Assembly: GCA_035317825.1 (NCBI GenBank)
Contig: DATHGB010000030.1
Span: forward strand, 1-49,455
Reading direction: 5' to 3'
From: Candidatus Saccharimonadales bacterium
GTDB taxonomy: Bacteria; Patescibacteriota; Saccharimonadia; Saccharimonadales; Saccharimonadaceae
Length of the DNA: 49,455 nucleotides
The notes beneath the pieces are model-generated. The model searched no databases and was not told the DNA's origin. It saw nothing but the letters and a program-made list of their open reading frames with translations. The translations under genes and the position numbers were made by a program. Each line of letters opens with the position of its first letter. Within the stretch, counting starts at the first letter, position 1. Below, piece by piece: positions 5,937 through 31,218 of this stretch.

Positions 5937-6515
5937 ATGATAGCGCCTCAACATAGTCAATCAAGTTTGATCCTACAGTACTATAAAATGCGACCGAACG
6001 AACCCGTGCCCCACTCGGAGGCGGTAGACTGGGCAATTGCTGAATGGCTGAGTCTTACTGGTAAAATATTTCGCGATCCTGACAGAGCTGTGCGAGACCT
6101 CTCTCAGAAAGGCATCTTGATTAAGGTAGAAAAGGGTGTTTACATGTACGACCCAGACCACGTCAGGCGTAATGACCTTTATGACTTCACTCCTCAGCAA
6201 AAAGCCGAGATACTATTGCGTGATAATTACCGCTGCGTGGTTTGTGGAAATGGCAAGGCTGAAGGTGTAGACCTACAGGTTGACCATGTCAAACCAAAAG
6301 AGAAGGGTGGACGAGCAACCATAGGGAATGGCCAAACATTGTGCGGACAACATAACTTTATCAAAAAGAATTATTCACAAACCGAGGCTGGCAAAAGGTT
6401 TTTCCTGAAGATGCGTGAACAAGCTGTCTCTCTCGATGATGCCAATATGATCGCTTTCTGTGACGATGTACTCGCTATGTACCAAAAGTACGGATACGAC
6501 ACCCGGATTAGCTAA
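5937..6515 (+). CDS. HNH restriction endonuclease
   Basis: 192 residues. The N-terminal half looks like a winged-helix DNA-binding region. The C-terminal half is an HNH nuclease: Y-R-C-V-V-C-G around residue 100, V-D-H-V-K-P, G-x-N-G-Q-T-L-C and H-N-F-I-K-K. The two Cys pairs probably hold zinc and the V-D-H histidine is the expected catalytic residue. It faces a C5 cytosine methyltransferase tail to tail with an 8-bp overlap, so it is most simply the type II endonuclease of that pair. The recognition site cannot be read. The ATG at 5937 coincides with the predicted transcript start; a GTG at 5919 lies upstream of it and would be untranscribed. Confidence 0.8.
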   Translation: MIAPQHSQSSLILQYYKMRPNEPVPHSEAVDWAIAEWLSLTGKIFRDPDRAVRDLSQKGILIKVEKGVYMYDPDHVRRNDLYDFTPQQKAEILLRDNYRCVVCGNGKAEGVDLQVDHVKPKEKGGRATIGNGQTLCGQHNFIKKNYSQTEAGKRFFLKMREQAVSLDDANMIAFCDDVLAMYQKYGYDTRIS

Positions 6516-7515
6516 GAACTTTTGCCATCTTCTTTGCGACCGCAGACACTACTGGTACGACTATTGAATTGCCGAATTGTCTGTACATCTGAGTTCTCGA
6601 TACGGGAATCTTATAGTCGGTAGGGAATCCCATTATTGCCTTACATTCACTTTCCGTAAATAAGCGCATTCCAGTTTCACCATCACTTACGAACGTGCCA
6701 GTTAGCCGTTGGATCTTATGGTATGACGCCACTAATGTCTTAACGTGCACTGCAGTACTGTGGTCTACTAGCATAGGCCTTCCGTCATCAAGTTTGCGCA
6801 TATAGCCATCTTGCAACTTTTTACTAATAGAGTACCCGACCGCATCACGCTCCAGGAACTGATTGATATATACGTCCTTCTTCATTCCTACTGGAAACTC
6901 AAAATCAAAATCATCCGCGACAAGTTCCTTCCTGAACCCGACGATATAAATGCGCTTACGTTGCTGTGGCACGCCAAACTCAGCTGAGTTCAGAACCTTA
7001 TAACCTACTGTGTAACCGATTTCATCGAGGGTTTTCTTGATGATTTCAAACGTCTGGCCTTTGTCGTGAGTTAATAGTCCAGGCACGTTTTCTAGCATAA
7101 ATGCCCGAGGCTGCTTATCTTTTATTATTCGGGCAACATCGTAAAATAAAGTACCCTGTGTCGCGTGTTCAAACCCCTGGCGTCTACCTATACTACTGAA
7201 TGGCTGGCATGGGAAGCCTGCTAATAGTACGTCAAAATCTGGTATATCAGACGTGTGTATTTTCGTGATGTCTCCGTGGGGTTTGTCGCCGAAATTTGCC
7301 TCGTATGTTTTCTGGGAAAAAGTATCCCATTCGGATGTAAATACACATTTGCCACCAGCTGATTCGAAACCAAGCCTAGTACCGCCAATACCCGCGAACA
7401 AATCGATGAAAGTGAATTTAGTCTTTCGTGAACTTTTTACTGGTTTTATCGTCATACTATCTAATACGCCATCCAGATTAATATCTTCTTGTTCTGTTAT
7501 TGTTGCAGTTTTCAT
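6508..7515 (-). CDS. C5 cytosine DNA methyltransferase
   Basis: 335 residues with the ordered motifs of the Dcm class: D-L-F-A-G-I-G-G (I, AdoMet binding), G-F-P-C-Q-P-F-S (IV, catalytic Cys), E-N-V (VI), Q-Q-R-K-R-I-Y (VIII) and F-G-N-S-I-V (X). The target-recognition stretch between VIII and IX is short, about 80 residues. It methylates cytosine in DNA, protecting the cell from its partner, most likely the HNH endonuclease whose 3' end it overlaps. A Vsr gene lies 1 kb away. Confidence 0.92.
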   Translation of the reverse strand: MKTATITEQEDINLDGVLDSMTIKPVKSSRKTKFTFIDLFAGIGGTRLGFESAGGKCVFTSEWDTFSQKTYEANFGDKPHGDITKIHTSDIPDFDVLLAGFPCQPFSSIGRRQGFEHATQGTLFYDVARIIKDKQPRAFMLENVPGLLTHDKGQTFEIIKKTLDEIGYTVGYKVLNSAEFGVPQQRKRIYIVGFRKELVADDFDFEFPVGMKKDVYINQFLERDAVGYSISKKLQDGYMRKLDDGRPMLVDHSTAVHVKTLVASYHKIQRLTGTFVSDGETGMRLFTESECKAIMGFPTDYKIPVSRTQMYRQFGNSIVVPVVSAVAKKMAKVLS

Positions 7516-29015: not shown

Positions 29016-29954
29016 ATGTCCGCAGATACGTCAGTGCTAGAAGACCCTAAAGAGCAGCAACTTGAAGATAAACCACATATGGATAGTGACGGGGAGCATC
29101 TATCCGCTTTGCCCGTAAGAGATTACGATTCCGCACCCGAGCACGTAAAGCAATTCTATTTAGACAATCACACCCACCATACGTACGAATCAACCCGTAA
29201 GCTATGGAATGACTACGCCTCACCCAAAGCAAGAACGCTTAAAGCCCCTATGTGGGATATGCTCGTCGCCGTAGGGGAGTTTTTTGACGCCAGCGATCCC
29301 GATGTCGAAGACCCGCAAATCGTCCACGCGTTCCAGAGTGCGGAATCCGCAAGGGAAAACGGGGAAGATGACTGGATGCAGGCAACCGTCTTAGTCCATG
29401 ACGTCGGTAAAATTCTCGCCACCAATCTGCTTCCAGGCAGAGAAGCCCTGCCTCAATGGTGCGTTGTGGGTGATACGTTCCCACTCGGCATAAAATTTGA
29501 TGAGCGGATCGTTCTATCCAAATACTTCTTCGAACAGCCTGCCGTGCCCGATAGCAGCGATCCTTTGCTACGCAAGGGCTGGCCAGGAAACCCTGATGTC
29601 AAGCATCCTGTCTACGGTACTGAGCAGGGCGTATACGAAGACGGCGTAGGCCTGGATAATCTTACCGTTTCATTCGGCCATGATGAATTTTTGTTCCAGG
29701 TCCTAAACGGGAACTGTAACCTGCCAGACGGCGCGCTCCGTATGATCCGCTACCACTCCCTATATCCTATCCACTCAGCAGGTGCATATAGCCGCTTGCT
29801 AGGTGAGGGTGACGACGAAATACTTGCAGGCGTCAGACGCTTCAACCAGTACGATCTCTATTCAAAGGTTGAAAAAAAGCCGGATATCGCAGCACTCATG
29901 CCTTACTACAAGAACCTGGTTGATAAGTTCTTCCCAGAACCACTTAACTGGTAG
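29016..29954 (+). CDS. myo-inositol oxygenase (MIOX)
   Basis: 312 residues. MIOX turns myo-inositol plus O2 into D-glucuronate with a di-iron centre. Signatures are intact: H-V-K-Q-F-Y-L-D-N-H-T-H, Q-I-V-H-A-F-Q-S-A-E, V-H-D-V-G-K, V-V-G-D-T-F-P-L-G, F-G-H-D-E-F, R-Y-H-S-L-Y-P and F-N-Q-Y-D-L-Y. The ligand histidines and aspartates of the HD-type site are all present. MIOX is mainly eukaryotic and sporadic in bacteria, so it is unexpected in a small genome. A GGGAG ribosome site precedes the ATG. No inositol or uronate pathway genes are nearby. Confidence 0.93.
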   Translation: MSADTSVLEDPKEQQLEDKPHMDSDGEHLSALPVRDYDSAPEHVKQFYLDNHTHHTYESTRKLWNDYASPKARTLKAPMWDMLVAVGEFFDASDPDVEDPQIVHAFQSAESARENGEDDWMQATVLVHDVGKILATNLLPGREALPQWCVVGDTFPLGIKFDERIVLSKYFFEQPAVPDSSDPLLRKGWPGNPDVKHPVYGTEQGVYEDGVGLDNLTVSFGHDEFLFQVLNGNCNLPDGALRMIRYHSLYPIHSAGAYSRLLGEGDDEILAGVRRFNQYDLYSKVEKKPDIAALMPYYKNLVDKFFPEPLNW

Positions 29955-29966
29955 GAACTGGTTTAA

Positions 29967-30000
29967 AGTAAAAGGGTGCTGTTAACAGCACCCTTTTACT
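29967..30000. terminator. palindromic terminator after MIOX
   Basis: A 34-bp perfect palindrome with halves AGTAAAAGGGTGCTGTT and its complement, 13 bp after the MIOX stop. Confidence 0.85.
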
Positions 30001-30009
30001 ACGCTAATT

Positions 30010-30038
30010 TTGTAAAATCATATAGTTAATGCTATAGT
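30010..30038 (+). promoter_or_regulatory. promoter of the phenylalanine hydroxylase leader
   Basis: TTGTAA, 17 bp, TATAGT with TGC before the -10 (extended). It ends 6 nt before the ATG of the leader ORF at 30045. Confidence 0.65.
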
Positions 30039-30044
30039 CATGAC

Positions 30045-30116
30045 ATGAAATCGTTCAACGGCAATACGTATCTATATACCGACTATATCTTGGCGGTATT
30101 TGCTGTTCGCTCGTAA
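30045..30116 (+). CDS. aromatic-rich leader peptide
   Basis: 23 codons from an ATG 6 nt after the -10 box, so translated from the very start of the mRNA. Two Phe (4, 19) and three Tyr (9, 11, 14) make up over a fifth of the peptide, with T-Y-L-Y-T-D-Y in the centre. It lies in the leader of a phenylalanine hydroxylase gene, which makes Tyr from Phe. I infer a sensing role in attenuation. Chance enrichment cannot be excluded at this length. Confidence 0.5.
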   Translation: MKSFNGNTYLYTDYILAVFAVRS

Positions 30117-30165
30117 ATTTAATTCTTATTTTTCTCAGCTAATTACCGCCTAAAGAGCGGTAATT
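30092..30165 (+). promoter_or_regulatory. candidate attenuator with alternative hairpins
   Basis: Three segments: GGCGGTA (30092-30098, inside the leader ORF just after its Tyr codons), AATTACCGC(C) (30141-30150) and GCGGTAATT (30157-30165). The middle segment can pair with the first (7 bp) or with the third (9 bp, seven-base loop, then TAAATTTT). The two pairings exclude each other. Confidence 0.5.
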
Positions 30166-30188
30166 TAAATTTTAGTAGAAAGATAATT

Positions 30189-30980
30189 ATGAAAAACGAT
30201 GCATTTAACAAACGAAAAGAACATATCATAAGTCTCGCGACCGGGCCGGTTGCTCCGCCTGTACACATCGCGTACCTTCCGCACGAAAACAAAGTATGGG
30301 AAATAGTGAGCACGACGCTTAGGCCGATTTGGGATGCCGTGGTTATTGATGAAGTGCTTGAAGCACGCGAAACCATCAAGTTACCGTTAGATTTTGTCCC
30401 GCAACTGTCGGAGGTGTCAGATAAACTTCTGGCAACGAGTGGTTTTACGTACCATGCAGTTGGAGGTCTTGCTCCTAAGGACGAATTCTTTGGCGCACTT
30501 GGCAGGAAATCGTTCCTATCAACACAATACTTGCGCCACCCGAAATCACCCCTCTACACGCCCGAGCCAGATATCATCCACGAAGTCATAGGCCACGGGA
30601 CCTGTCTTGCCAATGTTAAACTTGCCCAATTACACCAGCTGGCAGGCTCAGCGCTTGTGCGCGTATCGACCGAACAAGCCAAGCAGTTCATCGCGAACGT
30701 ATGGTGGTTCTCAGGTGAATTCGGCGTTATTCGCCATACAAAAGGCGTCAAAGCGTTTGGCGCAGGACTACTTTCTTCCGTAGGCGAGCTCCAGTCTTTC
30801 ACGAGAGAGGCGACTATACGACCGGTTAATATCAAAGAAATGGGGACAACACCATACCAGATAGATATTTTCCAACGGACGCTTTTCGCGGCCGATTCTG
30901 TCGACCACTTGCTTGCATACGTCGGCGGGTTTTTCGCCCAAGTTGACGACATAATGATAGAAGAAATGCTACGTGCGTAG
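30189..30980 (+). CDS. phhA: phenylalanine 4-monooxygenase
   Basis: 263 residues, the size of bacterial phenylalanine hydroxylases. It contains P-Q-L-S-E-V-S-D-K-L, G-F-T-Y-H-A-V-G-G, Y-T-P-E-P-D-I-I-H-E-V-I-G-H (two His iron ligands), F-S-G-E-F-G-V (the Glu ligand) and G-A-G-L-L-S-S. It makes Tyr from Phe with O2 and a pterin or alternative reductant at a mononuclear iron. No pterin-recycling gene is adjacent. No strong ribosome site precedes the ATG. The leader holds a small aromatic-rich ORF and alternative hairpins. Confidence 0.92.
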   Translation: MKNDAFNKRKEHIISLATGPVAPPVHIAYLPHENKVWEIVSTTLRPIWDAVVIDEVLEARETIKLPLDFVPQLSEVSDKLLATSGFTYHAVGGLAPKDEFFGALGRKSFLSTQYLRHPKSPLYTPEPDIIHEVIGHGTCLANVKLAQLHQLAGSALVRVSTEQAKQFIANVWWFSGEFGVIRHTKGVKAFGAGLLSSVGELQSFTREATIRPVNIKEMGTTPYQIDIFQRTLFAADSVDHLLAYVGGFFAQVDDIMIEEMLRA

Positions 30981-31161: not shown

Positions 31162-31218
31162 ATGTGTAGCGGATGGGATTGGAATCAGGAAGACGCTCCG
31201 AAGGAGTCCTGGGCGTAA
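31162..31218 (+). CDS. small Trp peptide 1 of a duplicated locus
   Basis: 18 residues, MCSGWDWNQEDAPKESWA, three of them Trp. A very strong ribosome site (GGGGGGTGG) lies five nt before the ATG. Promoter, leader and ribosome site match those of the 28-residue peptide at 41333-41419. Peptide sequences differ but both carry W-D-W. After the stop, the bases GCATAATCAAGATA and a T-rich terminator-like tract are shared with the other copy. Function unknown: secreted or modified peptide, toxin, or regulatory leader are all possible. Confidence 0.55.
   Translation: MCSGWDWNQEDAPKESWA

Follow-up and report, generated by a model that had tools for sequence, protein, structure and literature searches.

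What controls phhA, a phenylalanine hydroxylase gene in a reduced bacterial genome, and to which amino acid does that control respond? We analyzed the 49,455-nt stretch of DNA that carries the gene (the window; contig C30 of genome G000, which spans 1.1 Mb in 30 contigs). The evidence, which is all computational, leads us to conclude that the 180 bases before phhA quite likely form a ribosome-mediated transcription attenuator whose signal is charged tyrosine tRNA.

PhhA and the supply of tyrosine

Although phenylalanine hydroxylase is often a catabolic enzyme, the gene content of the host genomes points to biosynthesis. PhhA is most likely a phenylalanine 4-hydroxylase: it matches PAH structures at 3e-35, and the metal-ligand motifs HEVIGH and GEFG are visible in its sequence. 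Since its score against the NCBIfam phenylalanine 4-monooxygenase model, 232.5 bits, is just under the cut-off of 247, we regard phenylalanine as its likely substrate only. Prephenate dehydrogenase (PF02153) was not found in any of six host genomes (G000, G435, G593, G772, G774, and G776; drafts, 83 to 100 percent complete), and chorismate synthase was found in G435 alone, whereas all 14 control genomes contain both enzymes. In drafts, single absences could be gaps; the absence of prephenate dehydrogenase is common to all six. With no prephenate dehydrogenase found in the six genomes, these hosts probably depend on PhhA alone to make tyrosine. Fitness data document that PAH synthesizes tyrosine in bacteria without TyrA (GapMind, PMC7311316), and a Tyr-sensing switch on phhA fits such a biosynthetic role.

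Among 393 genomes sampled from its class, and among 393 sampled from its order in an overlapping set, no PF00351 protein other than the window PhhA turned up. In our tree it lies closest to a protein from an Acidimicrobiia MAG (L002), and the gene was therefore probably gained by lateral transfer. No homologues were found in viral contigs.

Layout and folding of the phhA leader

Directly 5′ of phhA lies a myo-inositol oxygenase (MIOX) family gene (29016-29954, + strand; PF05153, E=3e-82). It has its own strong terminator (Table 1), and phhA is therefore a separate transcription unit. Between the two genes, the extended -10 promoter, the 23-codon ORF with three Tyr and two Phe, the motif GGCGGTA, and the 9-bp hairpin named in the original prediction all lie where it placed them. 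The predicted promoter, from a consensus scan, matches at 9/12 positions and carries the TG. Its -10 element ends 6 nt before the leader ATG; if the promoter is correct, this spacing suggests that the ORF is probably leaderless, with transcription starting at or next to the ATG. The three Tyr codons, although not adjacent to one another, fall within six codons, ahead of the gene that makes tyrosine.

Table 1. Features of the phhA leader and its surroundings in the window, with leaders and terminators before phhA in four relatives
Feature	Position	Strand	Details
Intrinsic terminator (strong) of the preceding MIOX-like gene	29970-29997	+	AAAAGGGTGCTGTTAACAGCACCCTTTT; extended hairpin -23.9 kcal/mol
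Predicted promoter	30010-30038	+	TTGTAA 30010-30015, 17-nt spacer, extended -10 TGCTATAGT 30030-30038
Leader ORF	ATG 30045 to TAA 30116	+	23 codons, MKSFNGNTYLYTDYILAVFAVRS
Region 1	30057-30081	+	AACGGCAA 30057-30064 and ATACCG 30076-30081; pairs with region 2; fold of 30055-30107, -15.3 kcal/mol
Control codons, Tyr	30069-30086	+	Codons at 30069, 30075, 30084
Region 2	30088-30107	+	TCTTGGCGGTA 30088-30098, antiterminator 5′ arm; 30093-30107, 3′ arm of 1:2
3:4 terminator-like hairpin	30141-30165	+	9 bp, then TAAATTTTAG; -10 kcal/mol
Region 3	30144-30156	+	TACCGCCTAAAGA; pairs with region 2 (antiterminator); span 30088-30156, -17.3 kcal/mol
AGAAAGA	30177-30183	+	Weak Shine-Dalgarno-like stretch
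phhA	30189-30980	+	263-aa biopterin-dependent aromatic amino acid hydroxylase; Pfam PF00351 Biopterin_H, E=2.5e-46
L004 leader and terminator			MMFNTYYASSGR; CCGCTTC...GAAGCGG-T7
L005 leader and terminator			MKLSWLSSATYYYPPLGGG; CCCGC...GCGGG-ATTTTTATTTTTT
L010 leader and terminator			MYYYYCFP; CCTCA...TGAGG-T8
L012 leader and terminator			MSVSLFTSTYYYYSTRLYCKGLSL; CCACCTTACGAGGTGG-T8

The leader folds more stably than 200/200 of its dinucleotide shuffles (z -3.6) and contains a full four-part ladder of 1:2, 2:3, and 3:4 pairings. GGCGGTA (30092-30098) had been proposed to pair with a segment downstream, and it is indeed complementary to TACCGCC. The 2:3 antiterminator is longer, however, joining TCTTGGCGGTA to TACCGCC-TA-AAGA in 11 bp around a 2-nt bulge, and the proposal overlooked region 1, which also pairs with GGCGGTA. 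By computation, antiterminator and terminator are mutually exclusive, and the balance between them is set by the position of the ribosome.

To place the ribosome, we used constrained folding, in which the covered bases, extending 13 nt from the first base of the A-site codon, were removed. The probability of the terminator hairpin was 0.88 in the free leader, 0.005 with the ribosome at the first Tyr codon, 0.036 at the second, 0.999 at the third, and 0.999 at the stop codon. When the end of the block was moved across offsets 20 to 40, the probability never exceeded 0.06; at 50 it was 0.99. The result for the first two codons is thus independent of the exact footprint. Stalling at either codon should result in read-through and open phhA, the classical polarity. 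The earlier proposal was that a stalled ribosome covers GGCGGTA and favors the second hairpin. In our folds this is so at the third Tyr codon only, whereas at the first two the ribosome covers the upstream partner, so that GGCGGTA becomes free and the hairpin is lost. That a stall at the third codon would favor termination counts against the attenuator reading.

Is the 3:4 hairpin a terminator? It passes our terminator scan, yet its stem is weak and its U tract interrupted. Since the terminators at other gene ends of the window have the same A-GC-T style of stem and short T tails (mean 3 T in 9), it is a plausible though weaker terminator. The poor U tract would also suit translational attenuation, in which the leader ribosome governs a hairpin that masks the phhA ribosome-binding site, and AGAAAGA can pair with the upstream TTATTTTTCT in an extended stem. 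However, the predicted folds keep AGAAAGA paired (unpaired probability 0.02) at every ribosome position tested; stalling changes nothing, so no switch is apparent for a translational mechanism. The plain terminators with long U tracts in four relatives also argue against this mechanism, which we consider unlikely. We prefer transcriptional control, mostly because the relatives have these ordinary terminators.

Tyrosine runs and terminators before phhA in relatives

Searching 380 genomes of the phylum and 353 genomes of the class of one hit for PF00351 yielded seven further phhA genes above the cut-off. Four of them are preceded by a leader with a Tyr run (YY, YYY, YYYY, and YYYY) and then by an intrinsic terminator with a long U tract that adjoins phhA (Table 1). 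Comparison of relatives for an aromatic-rich ORF, which the original prediction had suggested as its check, therefore gave a mixed outcome, as the other three (L006, L009, and L011) have no Tyr leader. At L009 (G1018), phhA starts six bases past an extended -10 element (TGCTAATAT); this mRNA may be leaderless, with no attenuator. Four other PF00351 matches in the phylum (L007, L013, L038, and L039) were set aside as below the family cut-off, and L007 is antisense to a long ORF. Outside the phylum, none of eleven phhA genes (ten plasmid-borne, from Actinomycetota and Pseudomonadota, and L002) has a Tyr leader with a terminator.

The four leaders differ in sequence and share only their Tyr codons and terminators. 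L005 has a complete four-part ladder, and its terminator probability falls from 0.99 in the free leader to <0.001 (0.0001) at the first two Tyr codons, with the terminator about half off at the third. The switch of L012 is weaker (0.22 free, and thus partly off without a ribosome; 0.06 stalled; about 1 at the stop). For L004 and L010, equilibrium folding gives no switch; short competing pairings can be drawn. We saw no Phe runs in the relatives' leaders. The idea of an aromatic-amino-acid attenuator on phhA is thus supported as to leader-peptide attenuation, by the folding switch in the window and the leaders and terminators of the four distant relatives, and narrowed as to the signal, which would be tyrosine. 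The searched genomes contain no close relatives of the window leader.

How often would such an arrangement arise by chance? As background we took 309 other genes, located in the window and in 18 stretches of DNA that represent seven genomes of the phylum; a fold-based terminator scanner was applied alike to cases and background. The rule required both an ORF that begins with ATG, is 7 to 32 codons long, and contains three or more Tyr within six codons, and a terminator-like hairpin ahead of the gene. It was fixed after the relatives' leaders were known, while the hypothesis of a Tyr leader before phhA was earlier and came from the window; with this order of events, 3/7 other phhA genes and 0/309 background genes fit the rule (Fisher p = 7e-6). 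Lowering the minimum to two Tyr gives 4/7 and 5/309 (p = 1e-5).

These numbers bear on the possibility that the short ORF in the window is random and the hairpin unconnected with it (a plain terminator or mRNA stabilizer, for example), both preceding a laterally acquired gene, with Tyr codons that are meaningless even if the relatives have attenuators. The solitary phhA in the class sample, the absence of a Tyr leader at L002, its nearest protein relative, and the non-consecutive Tyr codons would all be in keeping with chance. However, when the hairpin was held and the part upstream of it shuffled, only 11/2000 shuffles gave the same free/stalled switch; the window phhA is the only case with at least three Tyr and a terminator among 310 genes scanned; and the same logic precedes the same gene in four relatives. 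Coincidence thus seems an improbable explanation.

Two other short ORFs deserve mention. In the window, an 18-codon ORF with three Trp (MCSGWDWNQEDAPKESWA; 31162-31218, + strand), with the G-rich Shine-Dalgarno-like GGGGGGTGG immediately 5′ and TATAAT farther upstream, could be a small peptide gene; it has no Rfam match, its fold is ordinary (z -0.38), and nothing similar was found in the fetched loci. At L022 (G593), a possible histidine leader (MEDFLFINIVEILHHHTGGVRWAHP) and a terminator lie upstream of a methyltransferase-like gene (6098-6964, - strand) whose sole Pfam hint, DREV, is below cut-off at 15.8 bits. GGGTGGC can pair there with GCCACCC, but no clear switch emerged under constrained folding.

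Control of phhA might instead lie with a T-box, a riboswitch, or another structured RNA of a known type, with the ORF incidental, as tyrosine genes are under T-box control in other bacteria (PMC1262725). T-box leaders, too, sense Tyr-tRNA charging and control transcription, but in them the tRNA itself is read and no leader peptide is involved. The Rfam T-box model was unmatched in the window and in L004, L005, L010, and L012, and, except for a tRNA, no Rfam family reached its cut-off at these loci. The best sub-threshold match of the window leader is to Trp_leader (RF00513; 30085-30170, full model length, E=0.0042), at 24.7 bits, which is under the gathering cut-off of 41, and the leader has no Trp codons. 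With no family over its cut-off, and with leaders that have in common only their Tyr codons and terminators, control by a known RNA is very improbable.

Leader-bearing phhA genes fall in three places in the tree: f188, f72 (a fork with weak support), and the window with Acidimicrobiia. This distribution makes repeated origin of the Tyr leaders likely, the leaders being too short for descent to be tested. In 2/3 f188 loci, phhA has an uninterrupted frame only when TGA encodes a residue. Code 25, in which TGA is so read, is known from Gracilibacteria-type Patescibacteria, and from this reading and from genome size we infer that the phylum is Patescibacteria.

A proposed tyrosine switch and its relation to known attenuators

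How might the attenuator work? We propose that the transcript begins at or beside the leader ATG. With ample tyrosine, the ribosome would reach the leader stop codon and cover region 2, the 3:4 hairpin would form, and transcription would end ahead of phhA. When tyrosine is scarce, the ribosome would stop at the first or second Tyr codon and cover region 1, leaving region 2 to pair with region 3. This pairing would block the terminator, allowing phhA to be expressed and tyrosine to be made from phenylalanine. The parts of the leader, the mutually exclusive pairings, and the Tyr-run leaders and terminators that recur before phhA in relatives come from computation; translation of the leader ORF, termination by the hairpin, and tyrosine as the signal in the cell are inferred.

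Leader peptides have been described for Trp, Phe, His, Leu, ilv, and Cys (PMC1262725, PMC2965389, PMC8632094, PMC11802643). Like the pheL-pheA and trpL-trpE attenuators of Proteobacteria, the phhA leader combines a short ORF with control codons, a ladder of 1:2, 2:3, and 3:4 pairings, and a terminator-like hairpin before a gene that makes the amino acid presumably sensed. It differs from them in its Tyr control codons, its phenylalanine hydroxylase gene, its weak terminator U tract, and an ORF that probably lacks a ribosome-binding site, and there is no sequence match. The AroR leader before aroF in Corynebacterium glutamicum also encodes an aromatic leader peptide at which stalling raises transcription (PMC11802643). 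However, AroR contains Phe-Tyr-Phe, is reported to respond to limitation for Phe and not Tyr, and governs the first step of the shikimate pathway. The uORFC-8-2 leader before cysS (PMC8632094) is likewise a comparative-genomics case with tandem control codons and a terminator, but it uses Cys codons and is alphaproteobacterial and conserved in one order, whereas the phhA leaders all differ and recur by logic, not sequence.

The mechanism is classical; none of the papers that we searched describes it for this sensed residue, this gene, or this phylum. Searches for Tyr-codon attenuators, phhA leader peptides, and Patescibacteria attenuators returned nothing relevant, and we came across no account of attenuation by leader peptides in this phylum, or of a demonstrated Tyr response in any leader attenuator; as subscription papers were mostly outside the search, this is weak evidence of novelty.

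We see about even chances for a broader proposal, that Tyr-specific leader-peptide attenuation arose repeatedly before laterally acquired phhA in small-genome, probably host-dependent Patescibacteria in which PAH is the sole tyrosine biosynthetic route, with some leader peptides starting at the transcription start. Recurrence of one logic ahead of one gene, across several phhA lineages, would illustrate how easily this switch evolves. Our findings also predict that these reduced genomes use phenylalanine hydroxylase as their enzyme for tyrosine biosynthesis.
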